Assembly (NCBI GenBank): GCA_964036195.1
Contig: OZ038452.1
Location: 16,548,704 to 16,612,703, forward strand
Reading direction: 5' to 3'
DNA from: Sphaerolaimus hirsutus
Lineage: Eukaryota; Nematoda; Chromadorea; Monhysterida; Sphaerolaimidae
Length of the DNA: 64,000 nucleotides
Position 1 is the first letter of the stretch, and every line of letters starts with the position of its first letter. Below the pieces are notes generated by a model. That model was not told the DNA's origin and made no database searches. It saw only the letters and a list, made by a program, of their open reading frames with translations. The position numbers and the translations under genes are program-made. Shown one piece after another: positions 23,219 through 61,612 of the stretch.

Positions 23219-24404
23219 CAGGGTTGGTTTTATAAAAATTCATTTTAGTAAAATTGTATAAAAATTGTATAAAAATTTTATTTTATTTTTATTTTATTCT
23301 TCTTTCATTTTATTTTATTTTATTTTATTCCCAAAAGTCGTTAATAAAATAAAATGACCCATTTTACAAAAATTTTACATTAATTTTACAAAAATTTTAC
23401 AAAAAATCAGAATCATGCATGCAAGGCCAGAAAAATTTCATCATTAGACATTATACATGAAAAACTTGTGACAAATTTTGCCATTACTTGACAAAAGTTG
23501 CATGCAGTAGGTATTGTTAGCTAGCAGCAAGTGTAAACTTACCATTATTGATAACAATGGTTTGCATTTTTTAAAGGACTACTGGTGCCAGTTCCGCAAA
23601 ATGAAAAGTGAGAAGTGAAATGGCGAAGTAATCGAGCAAAGACAAAGTCAGAAAGGCTGAAGGTGGCAGCTTGCCCATTGCGCTTTTACTTCGTCTTTGC
23701 CATTTCACTTCTCACTTTTTATTTTGCGGAAGTGGCCCCTGGACTGTGCTGGGCACATTTGTAAAATATTATGCAAAGTGTCAATTGTCATGACAAATGT
23801 AAAGTAGTGTCAATTGTCATGCAAAATGTCAAGTGTCATGGAAAATGTAAATTGTATAACCAAATCTTAGGTTTTTCTATCCAAATCTTATGTTTATGTA
23901 TCCACATTTGGATACAGAATGTAAGATTTTGATACAAAACATAAGATCTGGATACAATACAGAAGATTTGGATAAAAGAGAAGATTTGGATATAAAACAT
24001 AAGATTTGGATACAATTTGCTTGACAATTGGCACTTTAATTTATTTTTGTCATGACAATTGACACTTTACTAGTTATTTGCCATGACAATTGACACTTTG
24101 CATGGCATTTTTCATGACATTTGAGACTTTACAAAGCTTGGGACCGCTCCCAGTTCCACGAATAAACAGGTAGAAACTCAAGCAACAAGAAAAATATTTT
24201 ACAAATAATATGAAGTTTTATACAATTTTACATAAAATATGAATTTTTATACAATTTTACAAAAATTTTACAAAAATTCGAATTTTTATACAATTTTTAT
24301 TTTTATTTTGAAATTTTCCATTTTATTTTATTTTATTTTATTCTTAAATTTTCCATTTTATTTTTATTTTATTTTTATTTTTTTCTGCGATTTTGCCAAC
24401 CCTG
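23219..24404. mobile_element. hAT-like element, CAGGGTTGG family, 8-bp target duplication
   Basis: The ends are CAGGGTTGGTTTTATAAAA and TTTTGCCAACCCTG. The flanking 8 bp GTCCCGAC is identical at 23211-23218 and 24405-24412. Subterminal AT-rich arrays (TTTTATTTTATTTTA and TTTTACAAAAA) occupy both sides. The core has GTATCCAAATCTTATG-type repeats and CATGACAATTGACACTTT motifs. No transposase ORF. A second full copy is at 58416-59430 and a partial one starts at 63389. CAGGG ends with 8-bp duplications are typical of the hAT superfamily (family knowledge). Confidence 0.9.
23582..23742. mobile_element. CTGGTGCC-ended palindromic MITE nested in the hAT-like element
   Basis: The ends CTGGTGCCAGTTCCGCAAAA and the complement of the right end pair over about 45 bp, including AAGTGAGAAGTGAAATGG. 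The equivalent place in the 58416-59430 copy (about 58765) reads GGACTACTGGAGTGTGCTGG and is empty. Confidence 0.85.
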
Positions 24405-48100: not shown

Positions 48101-51100
48101 CCTGTTCAAGTTGGGGTAACTGGGTCGCTGCACGTCCAGATTCCGCTTGCAAAGGTCGTAGATGGCTTCGTTGTCCACCATGAATGAGCAGTCGCTGTGT
48201 TCCAGCGTCGTGTGCGTGGTCAAGATAGAGTTGTACGGCTCGACCACCGCCGTAGACACCTGCGAAACATGCGCACACGCGTGCTTTATTACCATAACAC
48301 GGCGTCAAAATGTGCACATGTGGGAATTGGTAGTGCTTCAAGTGGTATAAGATTTACCAATGCCGTATCAAAAACTTTAATACCGATTACCTGTTGAAAT
48401 GAAAAAATCTCTATTGAAATGAAAAAAAGGTCATCTAAAAACCTATCCAGACAAAGCGATCACAGATAAAAGTGGTAAAAATTTGAAAAGATATATTTTA
48501 ATGAAATTGAATATTTGAAAATACGTAATATAATTATCAAAAATGCAATACATTTTCATTAAGCCGTATTTCGCTGGCAGTTGAGGAGCTATTTTTCACA
48601 AACCCTATGTGCGACGAAAACCTATACAGGAGATGTATCTTACTAAAACATAGATAGACAAATATCTAACCAGGGAATTAGGTGGTAAATGAATATTACC
48701 TGGGGCGCGGGATAAACTGAGAATTCCAGCTTCGACTTTTTGCCAAAGTCCACGCTGAGTCGTTCCATGAGCAGAGAAGTGAAGCCGGAACCAGTGCCAC
48801 CGCCAAACGAATGGAACGTTAGGAAGCCCTGCGACGATGAAATGCAACCACTAAGGGGTAAATGCAACACTCGTGGTAGAGTGACAAACTTGCAGGCCGG
48901 AGCAATTTTCAGACAGGCGACGGATTCTATCCATGGTGGACTCTATCAGCTCCTTGCCGATGGTGTAGTGGCCGCGCGCGTAGTTGTTCGCGGCATCTTC
49001 TTTACCTGACAAAATGAAAATAAACGACAGATTTTGACAAATTTCAAAATGAAAATAAACGACGTATTTTAGATTTTGACCCTCGGTGGGTTGGATAGAA
49101 GGCTGCAAGCAAATTTGGTGGTGTTGGGGGGGGGGGCAGGGGTATCTTGAATTTTGACCCTCCGAGTGGTTGGATAGATAGCAAATCGCTCCTCCGGAGG
49201 GATAGATAGCTGAAAAATTTTCTGGGGGGGGGGGGTTGGGGAGGGGTTGTGGTGGTTCGATATATAGGCTTTTTCGGGGCATAGAAGGAAGAAAAGGGAG
49301 AAAAATCGCTAAAAGTAGGTGTAAAATAGCTCAAAATGGGTATACAAGAGCATACTTATAATAGCTGAAAATAGGCAGTTAGACGCATGAACCAGTGATT
49401 TTGGAGGTGAAAATCTATATATAGGTATGAAAAATAGCGATTTTGAGCGAAAATTGGGGTATAGTTTCTGAAAAATCGCTCCAGATAGGTAGATAGCTGG
49501 GCGATTTGGGGGGGGGGGTTTAGGGGGTAGTAGCCCAAAATTTTGCCTCCGGGATAGATAGATAGCTGAGCGGCCTCCGGGATAGATAGATAGCTGGGCA
49601 GTTAGGGGGGGGGGTAACCCCCCCCCCCAACCCCCCCCCCCCCCCATTCGAGACCCCTGGGGGGGGGGTTCTATATATAGGATTTTGAAAGGGTAGAAGG
49701 AAGAAAAGGGAGAAAAACCGCTAAAAGTAGGTGAAAAAAATAGCTAAAAATAGGTAGATAATAGTACAAAAATAGCTGAAAATAGGTTATTTAACACATA
49801 AAAATAAAAATTGACGATTTTGAGCCAAAAATTAGGTAAAATTTCCCAAGAATCACTCCAGATAGGTAGATAGCTGTGCGATTGGGGGAGGGGGGGGGTT
49901 TAGGGGATAGTAGAAAAAAATGATAAATGAGTGGCCTCCAGGATAGATAGCTGGCCGGTTTGGGGGGGTTACTGACTGAGACCTGGACTTATTATACATC
50001 TAAATAAAAAAGGTATTTATAAATGTTCATATAACCTGTTCAAGGTGAAAACAACTTGCTCAAAACCATTCCTTCCTGGGTAGCTTTAGGAGGTAACTGC
50101 GACAAAACACAAATCTAAACCCATCACACATCTAGACCTGGCGCACATCTTATTCTACCCATCACACATCTTAGCCCATCACACATCTAAACGACCCATA
50201 GATGTGACGGGTCTAGATGTGATAGACAGTAGGGTTCAAACGATATATTGTATCGAATATCGAATATCGGATATCGACCATTTTTTAATATCGAATATCG
50301 ATATCGAAAATTTTGAAAAAATATCGAATATCGATATCGAAAATTTTGAAAAAATATCGAATATCGAATATCGATATCGAAAAGTGATATCGTTTGAACC
50401 CTAATAGACAGGGAATTAGTGGTGTCACAAACCGTCTGAAGGTTAAATTTTTAAGTGTTTTTTTCTTAAATGACTTTTCAAATTTTGAATTTTTCAAAAA
50501 ATAGCTTTCAAATTTTCAAATTGCCCCTTTTTCCCCAGCGTGTGTAAACATTTTGAAATTGTCCAATTTTTGTTTGCCATTGTTAATTGTGACACCGCTA
50601 ATCTCCCGCCCATCACACATCCAGACCCATCACACATCTATGGGGGTTTAGATGTGTGATGGGTAGAATTATATGTGTGCCGGATCTAGGTGTGTGATGG
50701 GTTTAGATGTGGGCTGGGACAGGGTCGGTTACCTCCCTTTCCCACCCCTGCACGCATGTGTGCAGACTGCGCCTCAACAAACCAGTTATGAGCTGCTCGG
50801 GGTGATACAGGGTCTTGTAAGCTCCCGTGCGAATTTCATCGATCACGCTCGGCTCCAGGTCGACCAGGATGGCGCGCGGCACGTGTCTCCCGGTGCCAGT
50901 CTCGGAAAAGAATGTCGAGAAGCTGTCATCGATGTTGCCGCCGTTCGACGCCGTCTGCAACGTGAGCCACAGCGTTAATTTAAAACCACGATAATCATAA
51001 GCAATCAGAAGAAAATTTGGCACAGTGCCCAAAATAGACCTTCTCAGCCGACATAAAGCCATCGGGCTGGATTCCGTGCTCCAAGCAGTACAGCTCCCAG

Positions 51101-51248
51101 CAAGAATTGCCGATTTGCACTCCCGCCTGTCCCACGTGCACGGAAATAACTTCGCGCTGCGAAATAAAAGAAAACCAAATTCGACCCACAGAAGCTGAGT
51201 GAAGATTTAGACATCAAAGCGAATAAAATAATTACAAAGCATAACCAT
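45195..51248 (-). CDS. TUBA: Alpha-tubulin, complete, ten exons, 455 aa
   Basis: Minus-strand exons: 51248-51246 (ATG alone, donor gttatg, tentative), 51156-51040, 50954-50783, 49005-48890, 48828-48700, 48259-48089, 47772-47560, 47277-47134, 46020-45857 and 45333-45195. All junctions are GT-AG and the phases fit; total 1368 nt. An intron directly after the initiator ATG is common in animal alpha-tubulins. Landmarks: [17 protein letters not shown] at the N-terminus; Lys40 (the acetylation site) as the last residue of exon 2; [19 protein letters not shown] (nucleotide-binding loop); [20 protein letters not shown] with the catalytic-type Glu near 254; and a C-terminal Glu-Glu-Tyr suitable for detyrosination. 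It polymerises with beta-tubulin into microtubules. Oddities: CDPLLGKYM where most alpha-tubulins have CDPRHGKYM, and a rather weakly acidic tail, so it may be a divergent, tissue-specific isotype. Introns hold several MITEs. Confidence 0.96.
46500..46935. repeat. GGAGATACCCTGTTTCG array with a hairpin, in a tubulin intron
   Basis: GTGGAGATACCCTGTTTCG occurs five times or more with spacers of 40-130 bp. At 46514-46578 it forms a nearly perfect hairpin around a short AT-rich loop. It is probably a MITE with subterminal motifs; outer ends were not defined. Confidence 0.65.
47830..47953. mobile_element. CCGTATTTCCTCG MITE, short copy in a tubulin intron
   Basis: TA|CCGTATTTGCCCTAAATACC at the left and CGAGGAAATACGG|TA at the right, inside the intron 47773-48088. 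Confidence 0.8.
49090..49640. repeat. Dispersed GATAGATAGCTG / CTCCGGAGG repeat in a tubulin intron
   Basis: Several diverged units with GGGATAGATAGATAGCTG, long G runs and AAAAATCGCT follow one another. Similar units occur at 1-240, 3630-3860, 29484-29600, 45420-45800 and 49860-49970. Confidence 0.65.
50111..50718. mobile_element. Element with CCCATCACACATCTAGA arrays in a tubulin intron
   Basis: Motifs of the type CCCATCACACATCTA run in one sense at 50117-50195 and inverted at 50636-50715, around a core of about 400 bp. The second copy (53990-54392) has the same arrangement without the insertion at 50230. Confidence 0.7.
50230..50403. mobile_element. Short hAT-like MITE with ATATCGAT array, absent from the paralogous copy
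   Basis: The ends TAGGGTTCAAACGATAT and ATATCGTTTGAACCCTA are flanked by identical ATAGACAG at 50222-50229 and 50404-50411. At 54088-54105 the paralogous sequence reads GATGTGATACAGGGAATTAG with no element. Confidence 0.93.
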
Positions 51249-53625: not shown

Positions 53626-55111
53626 CCCATTCGAGATCCCTGAGGGGGGGGTTCTATATATAGGATTTTGAAAGGGTAGAAGGAAGAAAAGGGAGAAAAA
53701 CCGCTAAAAGTAGGTGAAAAAAATAGCTAAAAATAGGTAGATAATAGTACAAAAATAGCTGAAAATAGGTTATTTAACACATAAAAATAAAAATTAACGA
53801 TTTTGAGCCAAAAATTAGGTACAATTTCCCAAGAATCACTCCAGATAGGTAGATAGCTGTGCGATTGGGGGAGGGGGGGGGGGGGTTTAGGGGATAGTAG
53901 AAAAAAATGATAAATGAGTGGCCTCCAGGATAGATAGCTGGCCGGTTTGGGGGGGTTACTGACTGAGACCTGGACTTATTATACATCTAAACCCATCACA
54001 CATCTAGACCTGGCGCACATCTTATTCTACGCATCACACATCTTAGCCCATCACACATCTAAACCACCCATAGATGTGTGACGGGTCTAGATGTGATACA
54101 GGGAATTAGTGGTGTCACAAACCCTCTGAAGGTTAAATTTTTAAGTGTTTTTTTCTTAAATGACTTTTCAAATTTTGGATTTTTCAAAAAATAGCTTTCA
54201 AATTGCCCCTTTTACCCCAGCGTGTGTAAACATTTTGAAATTGTCCAATTTTTGTTTGCCATTGTTAATTGTGACACCGCTAATCTCCCGCCCATCACAC
54301 ATCCAGACCCATCACACATCTATGGGGGTTTAGATGTGTGATGGGTAGAATTAGATGTGTGCCGGATCTAGGTGTGTGATGGGTTTAGATGTGGGCTGGG
54401 ACAGGGTCCGTTACCTCCATTTCCCACCCGTGCACGCATGTGTACAGACTGCGCCTCAACAAACCAGTTATGAGCTGCTCGGGGTGATACAGGGTCTTGT
54501 AAGCTCCCGTGCGAATTTCATCGATCACGCTCGGCTCCAGGTCGACCAGGATGGCGCGCGGCACGTGTCTCCCGGTGCCAGTCTCGGAAAAGAATGTCGA
54601 GAAGCTGTCATCGATGTTGCCGCCGTTCGACGCCGTCTGCAACGTGAGCCACAGCGTTAATTTAAGACCACGATGATCATAAGCAATCAGAAGAAAATTT
54701 GGCACAGTGCCCAAAATAGACCTTCTCAGCCGACATAAAGCCATCGGGCTGGATTCCGTGCTCCAAGCAGTACAGCTCCCAGCAAGAATTGCCGATTTGC
54801 ACTCCCGCCTGTCCCACGTGCACGGAAATAACTTCGCGCTGCGAAATAAAAGAAAACCAAATTCGACCCACAGAAGCTGAGTGAAGATTTAGACATCAGA
54901 GCGAATAAAATAATTACAAAGCATAACCATGGCTGTTGATGCGGGTGATTTTGATGATGCTGTCGACTTTTTAGAAGGCGGCAAACTTTTCCAAATTGTC
55001 AGCGGGGTAACGAACTGAATCGCGGCAGCTCCAAGGGCTAGAGATAATGGAAAATTGAAGTTGCAAAAATTTTATTCAAAAATCCCGCCAATTATCAGAT
55101 CGCCTTGAGAG
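53626..55111 (-). pseudogene. Second copy of the alpha-tubulin 5' region (exons 1-3 only)
   Basis: The stretch is collinear and nearly identical with 49644-51430. It contains the ATG (54930-54928), exon 54838-54722 (117 nt) and exon 54636-54465 (172 nt). Splice sites are intact, and the two coding exons encode the same protein as the complete gene. The other seven exons are missing. The copy lacks the hAT-like MITE at 50230 and a stretch of about 108 bp at 50003-50110. Its left flank enters the minisatellite at 53610. It is either a partial tandem duplication or the second haplotype misplaced next to the first; the adjacent N gap favours the latter. If the duplication is real, it would offer only an alternative promoter and 5' exons. 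Confidence 0.85.
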
Positions 55112-55250: not shown

Positions 55251-58200
55251 ATGCCGGTGGCCGCTGTGCAGTTGACTTGGCGCCAGCGGACGTCACTCGC
55301 GAAAATCACTTTTTTTCTGCACTGCTTGGCTTGTGCGACGTGCCTCGTTTTGGGTCTCTATCAAGCAGCAGTATCATATTTGACGTTCGGCAGTGTATGT
55401 TTGATATTATATGTATTTACCTGTGAAGCGCTTAAGAGTTGCCAGAGGGCAGTCCCAAACCCAGTAAAGTGTAAAGTAAAGTAAAATGTCATGTAAAATG
55501 TCAATTAAAACAAAACATAAAAGATTTTATTACTGAACTTTGCATGCCATTAGACACCTTACTTTACACTTTACCGTGTCTTGGATTGACACCAGCTGTA
55601 CAAGGGACTCAAAGTAGCGCTTGCACAATTTTGAATCGAGCACAGCGACGCGCGTCGCAGGTGGCCACGTTGGTGTCGAGCTACCGCGGCTCGATCGTGG
55701 GCATCACGCCCATGGTGAACACGGCGCTGTTCGCCGGCCTGCTGCCGTTGCACACGTTCGAGGCCGTGTTCGCGCTCGACCACGTGTCCAGCCGCTCCGA
55801 GGACCTGACGATGCACGCGGCCGCGGGCACCGCCTGGAAGAGCAGCTCGGCGCTGGGCGAGCAGGCCGTGTTGGGCGCCTGCACTGTCTTCAGCTGCGTA
55901 CTCGCACTCCTACTCAATACCATCTATGCGGCCAAATTTAGCAAGGTTAACCATTTTGCGCTATCATTTTGAATGGTGAGTGGAGCACATATTTTGTGCA
56001 TGATCCTACCATAATTTCATGAATAAAATCTTGTGATAAATTTCATGATTAATTATTGCATAGAAAAGGCAAAATATTAAGATGAATAAGCAGTATAATT
56101 TTTGGTTCATTATTCAGATGGGTTGTAGTAGGTTTCCATACTGAGTGTGATGTCCGCCGAGTATAACAACTGATTTATAGGTTTTTCAATTTTTCTTTGA
56201 GCAGTATCATCAAAAGAGTGACAAATACAATGTGAGTGCACATGCGCTGGGGCCTGCACTACGTACTCTACTGATCATGTAGACCTGTGGCCCGTGCCTA
56301 TACCCCCCCACCTAGTCATCTACACCCCCTCCAATTAGGGTCATAGATGAGTGGCGGGTAAAAATATTTATATGACTGGCGTGTATACATGATTAGTGGG
56401 TTTACATGACTACCGTATTTCCTCGAAATACCCCCAGGGGGTTTATTTTTTCAGAGTGGGATTTTTAAGGGGGGGTTAAACGAGGGGTGGGGTATTTCGA
56501 GGGGGGGGGGGGTTATTGCTTCGCCAGAAATTTTTCGAAATCCCAGTACGAAATTGTCGTTTGTAACGTACACAGATGTCGATAAATGCAACAAAAACCG
56601 CCATTTATAAGACTCTATAGACTTACCGTATTTCCTCGAAATACCCCCCTCAAAATGGGCACTATGAATTTGTGGTCCGGGAAATGCATAACACTTTCTG
56701 TGTTACAAAGTTCAAAACACTTTCTGTGTTACGTTAGAACGTCGTTTATACCATCTACCAGAGTTGGAAAAACATATTTACGTTTACCCAAAATACCCGG
56801 TTATTTGGGTATTTATATTTACGTTTACGTTTTCCAAAAATACCATTACGTTTTGTTACGTTTTTCTGGTACATTTACTCCGAATACTTTATGGTTCCCG
56901 CTGGAAGTGTGCCAACGATGGTTAACAGGTGCGAGTTTCATAAAAAGATGACAAAATTGATTGTTGTTATAATGTTATTTATTAACATATCACATCGATT
57001 ATTTTTTTTCATTTTTTTACGGAAGTCACCATGTTAATAATCATTGGCACGCTTCCAACATGAGACATAAATCAGTGCGAGGGCAGAGTATCATGTACGC
57101 CGAGTATACCAGAGAAAACGTAAAAATCGTATGGAAAATGCACAAAAACAGTGAATTTTTCAACTTTTTTCTGATATAATAAGTACAATTTATGTTTTTG
57201 GCCAATTAGCTTCTTAATTGTTTGATAAATAACATAGGTAAGCAAGAATGTGATCGTATTAGCAGAGAAATCCTTGAAACAGGAAAAACAAAAGTGTTTT
57301 CAATGCACTTGATCATAGGTGGTGCACTTCAAAGAATTTTTTACGTTTACGTTTTTTTTACGTTTACCCGGGTATTTTAAAAGTATTTTACGCTTTCAGT
57401 ATTAATACTCACCATTTAGAAAAGGTATTTACGTTTACGTTTACGTTTTCCAAAAATACCAGTATTTGTACAACTCTGCCATCTACATCCTTATATAAGG
57501 CTGTAAAAACTTATAAATGGTGGTTATTGTTGCATTTTTCACGTTTTTCTCTCAAAATTTTCACTCTGAAAAAATAAACCCCCGGCCGGTAATTCGAGGA
57601 AATACGGTATAAAAGTACAGACGGTAAAAACCCTATTCTAACATAACACAGTCATCGTTTTTAACGTGTGTTCTGCGTTTCCCGGATAACAAACCGCATT
57701 CGTTACCTATACACTAAATTTGGGGGGGGGGGTATTTCGAGGGGGGGTATTTCGAGGAGGGGGTATTTCGAGGATATACGGTAGTAGGCCTACACCAATA
57801 ATTTAACTACGTCGGAGATGCACGCAGTACTTGGCTCACGGAATCACGGAAGCGCTGTGCAACTACGACACGATCGAGCATTTGGGCGATTCGATCGCAT
57901 TGGACAAGGTGCAGTTCACGTGGCAGTGCTGCGGCCTGGACGGTCGAGACGACTGGTCCGAGAGGATTCCGTGCATCGACGATAATGGGTTCGTATTGGG
58001 ACTGTTAGTCACGAAGCACGAAAGAGGCACGAACCACCACGGGAGCATTAAGAATATAGGTACAGTATCAATTACAATTAAGAATCAATTACAGTATAAT
58101 GGTTTGGATGTTTGCTGAAAGAGTGCGCCTGGCATAAATGGCGCCGTCGCGCAGTGCACCTTGATGTTCGCCCTCTACTGGCACCATCGCTATAGCGCCA

Positions 58201-61200
58201 TTGCACCACAATGTGAAAGGATCCACGCACGCACTGCGCCATTCCTCCCAATTCTAGGGCGGCAGGCGTAAACGTGAGCACTTTTGCTACCACGACCAAA
58301 GCGGCTGTCACTGGAGCGAGTCCATCAAGAATTCCGCCGTCCTGTTGTTTGCTGGCATCGAGCCAGTGCTATTCAGCTGAATCATCACTCGTTGGCATTT
58401 GTTACCATGCATGACCAGGGTTGGTTTTATAAAAATTCATTTTAGTAAAATTGTATAAAAATTGTATAAAAATTTTATTTTATTTTTATTTTATTCTTGT
58501 TTCATTTTATTTTATTTTATTTTATTCCCAAAAGTCATTAATAAAATAAAATGACACATTTTACAAAAATTTTACAAAAATTTTACAAAAAATCAGAAAC
58601 ATGCATGCAAAGCCAGAAAAATGTTATAATTAGACCTATACATGAAAAACCTGTGACAAATTTTTCCCTTACTTTTCAAAAGTTGCATGCAGTATGTATT
58701 GTTAGCTAGCTGCAAGTGTAAAGTTACAATTATCGATAATAATGGTTTGCATTTTCAGTAGAAGGACTACTGGAGTGTGCTGGGCACATTTGTAAAATGT
58801 CATGCACAGTATCAATTGTCATGCAAAATGTCAAGTGTCATGTAAAATTTCAAGCAAAGTGGCAATTGTCATGACAAATGTCATGCAAAGTGTAATTTGT
58901 GTATCCAAATCTTGTGTTTTTGTATCCATAGTATGTTTTATATCCAAATCTTATGTTTTTGTATCCAAATGTTCACATAAGATTTGGAGTCAACAAAAAC
59001 ATAATTTAGATACAAAACATAAGATTTCCAAATAAAACCTGAGATTTGAACACAATTTATACTTTAATTTTTACATGCCATGACAATTTACACTTTACTT
59101 TACATTTGTCATGACAATTGACACTTTGCATGACATTTTACATGACATTTGACACTTTACAATGCTTGGGACTGCCCCCAGATCCATGAATAAACAGGTA
59201 GAGACTCAAGCAATGAGACAAAAATTTACAAAAAATATGAATTTTTATACAATTTTACAAAAATATGAATTTTTATACAATTTTACAAAATTTTTACAAA
59301 AATTTGAATTTTTATACAATTTTTATTTTTATTCTTAAATTTTCCATTTTATTTTATTTTATTTTATTCTTGAATATTCCATTTTATTTTTATTTTATTT
59401 TTATTTTTTTCTCAGATTTTGCCAACCCTGTGCATGACATGTATCTGTTCGCAGCCATTACATAAATACATAAGCTACACTTCATTCCAGGTTCCGTTGG
59501 ACACCCTGGCGCAGTATCACAGTGCTGAAGGCTGCCTCCATGCCGGTAATACATTGTGCCAATTAGAAAACTGCACAGCGCTTGTGAACTGATTGGAGGC
59601 GTGCTAAATACCGTACATATGCGCAGTGACGACGAGTCTGCCCGCGTACACACTGCCACTGGGTCTTTGCGTGCTGGTGCCAATCCCGGACCCTGTTAAG
59701 TGCCCTGGAAAATTTCAAATGGCATGCAAAGCGTCAAAACTCATGTAACATGCCCTGCAAAATGGCAACTCGGTTGCATGACATTTGACATTTTACAGGG
59801 CACTTTATAGGGTCTGGGACTGCTCCCTGGTGCTGGTGCAGCTGGCCGCCTTGGTGGGCACCCAATACGTCCAGTCTGGTATTCGCAACGCGCGTCGCCT
59901 GGCCAAGAAATTCCGACGCCCCATCGCGCCCGCCTGGCTGCTGCCGTTTGGTTTGGGCGGCCTGGAGCACAAGGATGCGCTCATCGAGGTGCGTTTGACT
60001 GATTTTGAAGACACCGTATTCAGGGTTGACACCGGTTCAATCTTCATGGTTGCAGGAGGCGAAAACATTGAACGTGGAGGCGCTGCGCAACAAGCAGCAG
60101 ACACGTGAACAGCGCGACGCTGAAGCCCAAGCTAAGGGGTTAAAGAAGAAAAATAGGCGTAAAACGGTGAAATTTGCATGTACCGTATTTCCTCGAATTA
60201 CCCCCCGAGGTGGAAATTTTTAGGGGGGGGGGGGTAAACGAGGGGGTATCTCGAGGAGATACGGTATTTATTACGTATTTATTATTTAGTACGGAGATAC
60301 GGAGATACGCGTATTATTGTTTCTTGCTGACCTCGAAATTTTTTCAACACAGATGCGTTTGGAAGCGCGGATTGCTTCAGCCGAAAGGGCTATCCAAGGA
60401 ACGACGGTGCGGACAGTGCTCCCCCAAATGACAGTTATGAAAAATCTGACCGTTTATGGTGCAGCTCCAATTGCACAAACACCAGTCGCGCCGGCAACTG
60501 CAGTGGAGCAGCCCAAGCTAACACCAAAGGCTGTGCCAGAAAAACCACCAGAAAAAGCTGCGCAGACCAATCCATCAGCGGAATCAGCAACAGTTAGCAA
60601 AGCATCGATGGAGCCAAATGCATTAGGTAGACCATCGGCGGAACCGGCTGCACTGCTCAAACCACCCAGAGAATCAGCAGAGCCGGCACAAAAGGGAAAA
60701 CCATCAGTTGAGCCAGCACCACTGGGAAAACCATCAGTTGAACCAGCACCACAGAAAAAAACATCAGTGGAGCCATCACCAATGGTAAAACCATCAGTTG
60801 AGCCATCACCACTGGGAAAACCATCAGTTGAGCCAGTGCTACAAGCAAAACCATCAGTTGAGCCAGCAGCACTGGCAAAACCATCAGTTGAGCCAGCACC
60901 ACTGTTAAAACCATCAGTTGAGCCAGCACCACAGGAAAAGCCATCAGTTGAGTCAGCACCACAGGAAAAGCCATCAGCACCACCCGACCCACGTAAAAAG
61001 CTTTCAAAGGGACCAACACAGCTGGGGAAACCATCGAGGGAACCAGCACAAACCAGTCAGTCGTATAAAGAGACAGAAAGTGCAGAGAATCTAGGCAGAA
61101 GCATTGTAAGTTCAAACATGATCACACGGTTACTGAAAAATGTGTTGTAAAATAACATCAAAGCCAAAATGCAGCCGTCAAAGGAGCCGCATCGACCAGC

Positions 61201-61612
61201 AATGGCTATCAAACCAGCAATGAAACCATCACTTCCAGCACCAGCGGCATTGCAACCATCAAAGTTGCCCACTGGTGCCAATCCCAGACCCTGTAAAATG
61301 CCCTGTAAAATGTCAAATGCCATGCAAAGTGTCAAAAGTCATGTAAAATGCCCTGCAAAATGGCACACATACGTTTGCCATTTTGCTGGGCATTTTACAT
61401 GACTTTTGACACTTTGCAAGACATTTGACATTTTACAGGGTCTGGGACTGCCTCCAGGTACCAATGTAGCACCACAACAAGGTGTTTCTGGTGGTGCAAA
61501 AGCTGCACGGCCACCATCAGCTCCACCACCACCTCCACCAGCCATGCCTAAGGGGGAACAAGCATCCAGGGAAAAGCAGTCTGCCCCATCTATGGATGAA
61601 GAGCATAAGTGA
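55251..61612 (+). CDS. Peripherin/RDS-like tetraspanin with long Pro/Ser/Glu repeat tail, ten exons, about 693 aa
   Basis: Exons: 55251-55394, 55661-55945, 57828-57970, 58258-58390, 59491-59545, 59627-59988 (split by an insertion, see 59671-59841), 60056-60166, 60353-61105, 61175-61274 and 61458-61612. Phases fit throughout. Spans: ITFFLHCLACATCLVLGLY; the region of NTALFAGLLPLH; LGACTVFSCVLALLLNTIY; and PLGLCVLVQLAALVGTQYV. The large outer loop has the tetraspanin cysteines: WQCCGLDGRDDW, RIPPSCC with a following Cys, then AEGC. The spacing, and QYVQSGI after span 4, recall peripherin-2/ROM1. The tail is a basic coiled stretch (RNKQQTREQRDAEAQ), then about ten 10-residue units KPSVEPAPLG (60690-60985), then a Pro-rich end. 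Peripherins shape membrane rims in photoreceptors; that role here is only an inference. Exon 4 has an alternative frame, but only the chosen one gives the CC motif. Confidence 0.82.
55453..55595. mobile_element. GGCAGTCCCAGACCCTGTAAAATG-family MITE (reverse) in intron 1 of the tetraspanin gene
   Basis: The left end CCAGAGGGCAGTCCCAAACC and right end TTGGATTGACACCAG are the diverged, inverted ends of the elements at 59681-59829 and 61275-61457. It occupies about half of the intron 55395-55660. Confidence 0.7.
56411..57783. mobile_element. Nested CCGTATTTCCTCG MITEs in intron 2 of the tetraspanin gene
   Basis: An outer copy starts at 56411 and ends CGAGGATATACGGTA at 57783. Within it is a second copy, 56624-57609 (TA|CCGTATTTCCTCG ... 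CGAGGAAATACGG|TA). The second copy itself contains the element at 56759-57478. Confidence 0.75.
56759..57478. mobile_element. hAT-like element, CAGAGTTGG ends with TTTACGTTTACG arrays
   Basis: The ends CAGAGTTGGAAAAACA and the complement of TTTGTACAACTCTG are flanked by identical CCATCTAC at 56751-56758 and 57479-57486. TTTACGTTTACG and AAAATACC motifs are arrayed next to both ends. No ORF. Confidence 0.9.
58416..59430. mobile_element. hAT-like element, CAGGGTTGG family, in intron 4 of the tetraspanin gene
   Basis: Same ends and arrangement as 23219-24404. The flanking TGCATGAC is identical at 58408-58415 and 59431-59438. Its core (about 58769-59178) is bounded by CTGGAGTGTGCTGGGCAC and GGGACTGCCCCCAG and resembles an enlarged copy of the MITE family seen at 59681 and 61275. 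Confidence 0.92.
59671..59841. mobile_element. MITE inserted in tetraspanin exon 6, probably spliced as an intron
   Basis: GTGCTGGTGC occurs at 59671-59680 and 59830-59839. Between the copies lie 149 bp with ends CAATCCCGGACCCTGTTAAG and CAGGGTCTGGGACTGC. Without the insert, exon 59627-59988 reads continuously through span 4 (LCVLVQLAALVG). With it, an in-frame TAA at 59746-59748 stops the protein. Splicing from CTG|gtgcca (59677) to gtgcag (ending 59841) restores the frame at the cost of two residues. Confidence 0.8.
60181..60266. mobile_element. CCGTATTTCCTCG MITE, short copy in intron 7 of the tetraspanin gene
   Basis: TA|CCGTATTTCCTCGAATTACC at the left and CGAGGAGATACGG|TA at the right. 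Confidence 0.8.
60690..60985 (+). repeat. 30-bp coding minisatellite (KPSVEPAPLG units)
   Basis: About ten in-frame units containing CCATCAGTTGAGCCAGCACC. Third-position differences between units are few, while residues 7-10 of each unit vary, suggesting recent expansion under weak constraint. The antisense open frame over the same stretch is a by-product. Confidence 0.88.
61275..61457. mobile_element. MITE that coincides with intron 9 of the tetraspanin gene (introner-like)
   Basis: The inverted ends CTGGTGCCAATCCCAGACC and (complement of the right end) CTGGAGGCAGTCCCAGACC continue into CCTGTAAAATG on both sides; the arms also share CATGACTTTTGACACTTTG. The phase-consistent intron runs from ACTG|gtgcca to ctccag|GTACC, that is, from one element end to the other. 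Removal gives LPTGTNVAPQ in frame; retention gives a stop at 61400-61402. Confidence 0.82.

Follow-up and report, generated by a model that had tools for sequence, protein, structure and literature searches.

This locus raises the question of whether an intron can be the direct product of a transposon insertion. Within a 64,000-nucleotide stretch of the Sphaerolaimus hirsutus genome (contig OZ038452.1; the window), a predicted intron of a tetraspanin-family gene had been described as coinciding exactly with a short inverted-repeat element, both of its splice sites being supplied by the element ends. The element is present: with its ends fixed solely from the inverted-repeat motif, it is a 180 bp non-autonomous DNA transposon (MITE) within the predicted intron (Table 1); among the loci read, this site is L009:4879-5058. 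The edges of element and intron differ, however, as the intron contains the element plus one of two flanking target-site copies, CTG to its left and CAG to its right. The original prediction is likewise correct for one splice site and not for the other: the element contributes the donor GT and a pyrimidine run, but the final AG lies in the right target copy. The exonic CTG 5' of the donor is also target sequence.

Exact removal of the element recovers the frame of the gene. The flanking exons join in frame, as had been predicted, and do so in phase 1 to give PSKEPH...QPSKLPTG followed directly by TNVAPQQGVSGG...EEHK and a stop codon, the frame staying open for 51 codons downstream of the element; the sequence around position 61275 encodes a proline-rich, low-complexity tail. 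The tetraspanin assignment holds, since the exons joined by hand match PF00335 (E 7e-9, above the curated cut-off), and the match extends 9 residues beyond the junction at a second element in the same gene (which follows residue 182 in the joined peptide). The RNA of the window site is predicted to form one hairpin (-125.9 kcal/mol against a shuffle mean of -53.6, n = 200, z -16). There are five matches in the window to the core of the terminal inverted repeat (TIR; up to 3 mismatches), with 0.01 expected from shuffles, and the copy at the window site is 3.3% away from the family consensus. Two relatives placed earlier at 59681-59829 and 55453-55595 are both real, although better limits for them are those of Table 1.

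Table 1. Features of the tetraspanin-gene region, in window coordinates.
Feature	Position	Strand	Description
Upstream exon	61175..61274	+	PSKEPH...KLPTG; ends in phase 1; last 3 bases CTG (61272-61274), the left target copy
Predicted intron	61275..61457	+	Element plus one target copy
MITE, putative introner copy	61275..61454	+	180 bp; starts GTGCC (predicted donor), ends GACTGCCTC; RNA predicted as one hairpin
Inverted arms, outer	61272-61300 / 61429-61457		29 nt, 90% complementary
Inverted arms, inner	61301-61368 / 61373-61440		68 nt, 94% complementary
Right target copy	61455..61457	+	CAG; predicted 3' splice site
Last coding exon	61458..61612	+	TNVAPQQG...EEHK, stop TGA
Second copy	59677..59826	+	150 bp; 11.3% from consensus; within transmembrane segment 4 codons of the same gene
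Target copies of second copy	59674-59676, 59827-59829	+	CTG and CTG (without AG); in-frame CAG at 59839-59841
Third copy	55446..55592	-	147 bp; old, 29.9% from consensus; non-coding, upstream of a tetraspanin exon

Other repeated sequences are found elsewhere in the window. A larger AT-rich repeat is present in two copies (23230-24380 and 58430-59410), each with degraded stretches related to the MITE family. Near-identical alpha-tubulin-like frames (named by eye) lie about 3.7 kb apart on the minus strand in a repeated stretch (50703-51206 and 54385-54888), and the segment 35741-41474 carries two long open frames of 1,220 and 607 codons that by eye resemble a LINE-type retroelement.

The proposal that the family is an introner had been drawn from three copies, and a search of the genome (348 Mb, 762 contigs) with an exact 22-nt end pattern extends it to thousands of copies, many of them in coding sequence. 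GT-ends follow CAG at 1,764 places (902+862) and CTG at 1,522 (774+748), and the opposite end is found with AG on the element's sense side at 1,423 places (682+741) and with TG at 976 (509+467); reversed-pattern controls of each search gave no matches. We read 92 loci (320,710 bases), chosen by likeness to three of the copies and comprising 40 of 40, 32 of 32 new and 20 of 39 new places from three scans, and recovered 112 full copies. Fourteen with near-identical left flanks were dropped to leave 98 with distinct left flanks, and L009, which repeats the window, was left out. The most common length is 189-192 bp (66 of the 98). The two termini are unlike each other, with GT/GG in 75 of 112 copies, GT/GA in 16 and GT/GT in 4; L010 has GT at both ends and its orientation is thus undefined. 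The TIR core has no match in public viral contigs or in bacterial and archaeal genomes, so the family has no outside relatives in these collections. Some genes contain several copies: one GPCR-like gene stretch (L028:3253-5132) has three, all in sense orientation, and L023 (SMG1) and L019 have at least two each. In the haplotype pairs L028/L049 and L018/L103 the central part of the element has diverged by several percent, and its ends and the exons are identical or nearly so, a pattern attributable to conversion, hairpin-related change or assembly error.

The target duplication is 3 bp long. In 42 copies whose ends were set from the TIR motif alone, CWG is present on both sides in 26, with the same W in 21 of the 26; some haplotype pairs (for instance L034/L035) are included in this count, but it is the clean one, as the refinement of ends used for the two window relatives and for the 112 copies favours CWG. 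The target flanks widen the CWG to a loose palindrome around CCWGG. A duplication of 8-10 bp, prompted by GTGCTGGTGC at the second window copy, was considered and dropped when further copies gave the 3-bp CWG. This same 3-bp CWG duplication is given for NuwaI (Harbinger-like) transposons of the PHIS superfamily, which are chiefly animal elements according to the available part of their description (PMC4482050). NuwaI was defined there from autonomous elements carrying genes for DDE and Myb/SANT proteins, whereas here there is a MITE alone without a linked partner, and intron birth by NuwaI is not reported in that part of the source. The genome contains 163 matches to a Harbinger-type transposase domain (PF13359); in the one copy read (L101) no TIR shared with the MITE was seen, and no autonomous partner with the ends of the MITE was found. 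We infer that a transposase of Harbinger/NuwaI type moved the MITE copies. The PF13359 matches include more than 100 near-identical copies, in each of which the match spans about 630 nt for 147 profile positions with about four in-frame TGA codons, as though a shared intron some 190 nt long were present in all of them.

Insertion into coding sequence is widespread among the copies read. A codon model, in which the strand and frame preference of each 90-nt flank was scored with the locus under test left out (its 13 training sources overlap the test set), classes 43 of the 98 distinct copies as exonic, which is a share among copies read and not a genome-wide share. In 30 of the 98 the two flanks agree on a gene in sense orientation that is in frame after exact removal of the element and one target copy; the other sense frames account for 4 and 9 copies, the antisense frames for 6, 4 and 3, and in 42 the flanks prefer opposite strands. 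This excess of in-frame sense copies is strong (p 3e-10 among same-strand pairs), and with both flank scores at or above zero there are 21 such copies against 1, 1, 1 and 2, with 16 on opposite strands. When right flanks are exchanged at random between copies, a shuffle that preserves the overall sense-frame preference, the result is a mean of 17.2 and a maximum of 28 in 5,000 trials, compared with the 30 observed. Open frames alone (25 codons on each side) run through in sense only for 27 copies and in antisense only for 7.

No antisense exonic copy was confirmed by homology. Among six antisense calls of the codon model, L052 is sense by homology (TSP_1), L027 is probably sense, and the four others were not assigned. 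Ranking by summed score prefers antisense in 16 of the 60 copies listed, including the high-scoring L024, L058 and L063; for L058 there is a sense reading that resembles WD40, with the main Pfam match confined to the left flank. Because the palindromic target gives no ground for a bias in the orientation of insertion, selection favouring the spliceable orientation would be the simplest cause of the excess of copies with the GT end on the 5' side of the gene, an excess that supports the introner proposal.

Conserved domains re-form when the element and one target copy are removed, which also supports the proposal. The joined flanks of L016 align without gaps to GRK2 residues 1-64 (E 1e-26), a gene in which introns at these positions are presumably absent elsewhere; those of L023 restore the SMG1 motif ETLLTLLEAFVYDPLVDWT (E 7e-8, exact cut checked), and those of L099 a laminin beta EGF repeat (E 1e-19). 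Thirty-eight peptides chosen by eye from two-strand lists were compared with Pfam; at E 0.01 there was a family match for 16 of them and none for the other 22. The junction is bridged above the curated cut-off by Neur_chan_memb (L029), Sterol-sensing/Patched (L044), Trypsin (L032), Ribosomal_S7 of mitochondrial type (L036), EGF_laminin (L099), adh_short (L056, a copy starting GG instead of GT), TSP_1 (L052) and Tetraspanin (the window), and LRR_6 (L071), also above the cut-off, reaches 3 residues beyond it. Matches to 7tm_1 (L028), DOMON (L014) and WD40 (L062, 2 residues beyond the junction) bridge it below the cut-off, and Vinculin matches (L030, L073) are also below. A search of the same assembly for empty sites of 16 re-joined junctions found none, all 46 matches being half-sites.

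The two ends of the exonic copies differ in how uniformly they resemble splice sites. GT begins 42 of the 43, and at the acceptor AG is present in 25 and absent from 18 (16 CTG, one CGG and one CCG). Copies lacking AG share the sense orientation of those that have it, and occur as sense insertions inside conserved domains (Patched, 7tm_1, trypsin and tetraspanin). They are younger (median distance 0.058 vs 0.079 with AG, p 0.015), the second window copy being an old one. AG is favoured genome-wide on the acceptor side (59.3% vs 53.7% on the donor side, p 2.7e-5), and mismatched target pairs are CTG/CAG in 11 of 112 copies and CAG/CTG in 4 (p 0.12). The window copy itself has CTG on the left and CAG on the right, and a later T-to-A change may have created its AG. 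In two GRK2 gene copies the acceptors are GAG and TAG, the first base having changed and the AG being kept. Exonic copies do not exceed the others in their share of AG (17/30 vs 38/62), which is a sign that AG matters little. At three sites a CTG insertion is present in both haplotype or paralogue copies (L018/L103, L028/L049 and L044/L102); the exons of L044/L102 diverge more than the element does, so that exchange between copies is possible and the pair provides no insertion date. Use of a downstream in-frame AG by the AG-less copies was considered and there is no sign of it, the first AG being in frame in 9 of 18 compared with 15 of 25 copies with AG. The RNA of one CTG copy is predicted to fold at -155.1 kcal/mol (z -21). 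Within the element TTTTACAG would be a candidate competing acceptor, and GTGCC looks like a weak donor.

We propose, with a probability of about 0.88, that the family is an introner: a MITE with 3-bp CWG target duplications that turns into a spliceosomal intron in one step when it inserts into an exon. A CWG-cutting transposase would insert the MITE, and in a sense copy the GT end would abut the left target copy to give the donor CAG/GTGCC or CTG/GTGCC. The opposite element end would provide a run of C and T, and the right target copy an acceptor if it is CAG; the intron would then comprise the element together with a single target copy, leaving the mRNA as it was before insertion. The fold suggests that the hairpin may draw the ends together and hide inner GT and AG dinucleotides. 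On this proposal the element copies are probably spliced from RNA and the introns at them probably recent. Counting against it are the AG-less exonic copies and the level AG share, the weak-looking donor and the competing inner acceptor, the searches that found neither empty sites in the assembly nor an autonomous partner, and the antisense preference of L024 and L063. CTG insertions would need something extra, whether TG as 3' splice site, an SOS-type rescue or a T-to-A change.

Several other accounts of the data can be given. For the single window site one might suppose that the MITE entered an older intron and that its ends match the splice sites by chance or after the remaining intron was lost; this is highly improbable, as no remnant of an older intron was found at that site and the exact fit with frame is repeated at many sites. 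SOS splicing, in which a hairpin directs excision and RTCB performs the ligation, might clear the element from mRNA in place of the spliceosome. This account has more in its favour, in that pairing of the inverted ends within the mRNA is predicted both at the window site and at the CTG copy, no AG would be needed, as in the 18 AG-less copies, and DNA transposons with paired inverted ends do leave animal mRNAs by this route according to the review PMC13247085. SOS splicing as presented there is a cellular rescue that should ignore orientation and GT, and the hairpin is identical either way round, yet the exonic copies are sense, their ends are base-exact in many genes and the acceptor side shows a preference for AG; we regard SOS splicing as improbable.

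It is also improbable that exonic copies are retained in the message, the tetraspanin gene stopping early or this allele being broken, and that such copies are generally young and being lost. The low-complexity, proline-rich tail, an open frame that ends at 61402 and the lower age of the AG-less exonic copies are consistent with retention, but it fails to account for the orientation excess, the 51 in-frame codons beyond the element, the conserved flanks around insertions in GRK2, SMG1 and mitochondrial-type S7, the presence of the element in all haplotype or paralogue pairs checked, or the AG-less second window copy, which at 11.3% is old. Least probable of all is somatic excision of the element from DNA, with RNA removal unnecessary. 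Harbinger-type excision can be precise and would require neither GT nor AG, but would leave unexplained both the orientation excess and the GT at one end of nearly every exonic copy.

The introner reading places the family within a known kind. Introners form families of look-alike introns in which the similarity stops at the splice sites, and they show DNA-transposon features and exonic insertion (Gozashti et al. 2022, PMC9860276), and the type in Figure 2C of that paper carries the 5' site and takes the other from a target copy. The available portions of the same source report introners in only two animal groups, with animals and land plants making up 835 of 3,325 genomes, and do not name Harbinger. 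The MITE family has in common with them DNA-transposon features, a similarity between copies that reaches the predicted splice sites, exonic insertion, and one predicted site carried with one from the target: the element edge is the predicted donor and the element plus 3 bp the predicted acceptor in many genes, with the mRNA restored or in frame. Its target copy is CWG, unlike the introners in the available text of PMC9860276, and half of the targets should therefore lack AG. On this reading a CWG-target MITE has given rise to an introner family in an animal. No other such case was found in the literature searched, which took in few subscription papers and is no proof of absence. Introns in the larvacean Fritillaria are reportedly MITE-derived and non-canonical, with splice sites other than GT-AG; these would also be animal introns from inverted-repeat elements, but with different splice sites. 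The Gozashti group is said to have a later paper on introner diversity.

The copies that lack AG may be removed through GT-TG splicing or hairpin-directed SOS splicing. We tentatively suggest, although we hold it somewhat less likely than its opposite, that the family forms introns with or without AG, GT...CTG copies also being removed exactly, either with TG as the principal 3' splice site or along a route assisted by the hairpin and still dependent on the 5' GT, and that some CTG later became CAG. TG is known in place of AG from alternative 3' splice sites in 36 human genes, as described in PMC2374985; these sites are alternative, whereas in the CTG-ended copies TG would have to be the sole site of the whole intron. 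If the suggestion is true, the birth of an intron would precede the birth of its AG, with a step between RNA-level rescue of a transposon insertion and ordinary splicing.

Introners rank among the leading explanations of intron-gain bursts, and the family seems to be an uncommon example of bulk intron creation in an animal, with young copies in conserved genes and a plain CWG insertion rule. The CAG and CTG targets form two natural classes that are one base apart at the 3' splice site, and they make it testable how a fresh transposon insertion turns into an intron and whether RNA rescue is an intermediate step.
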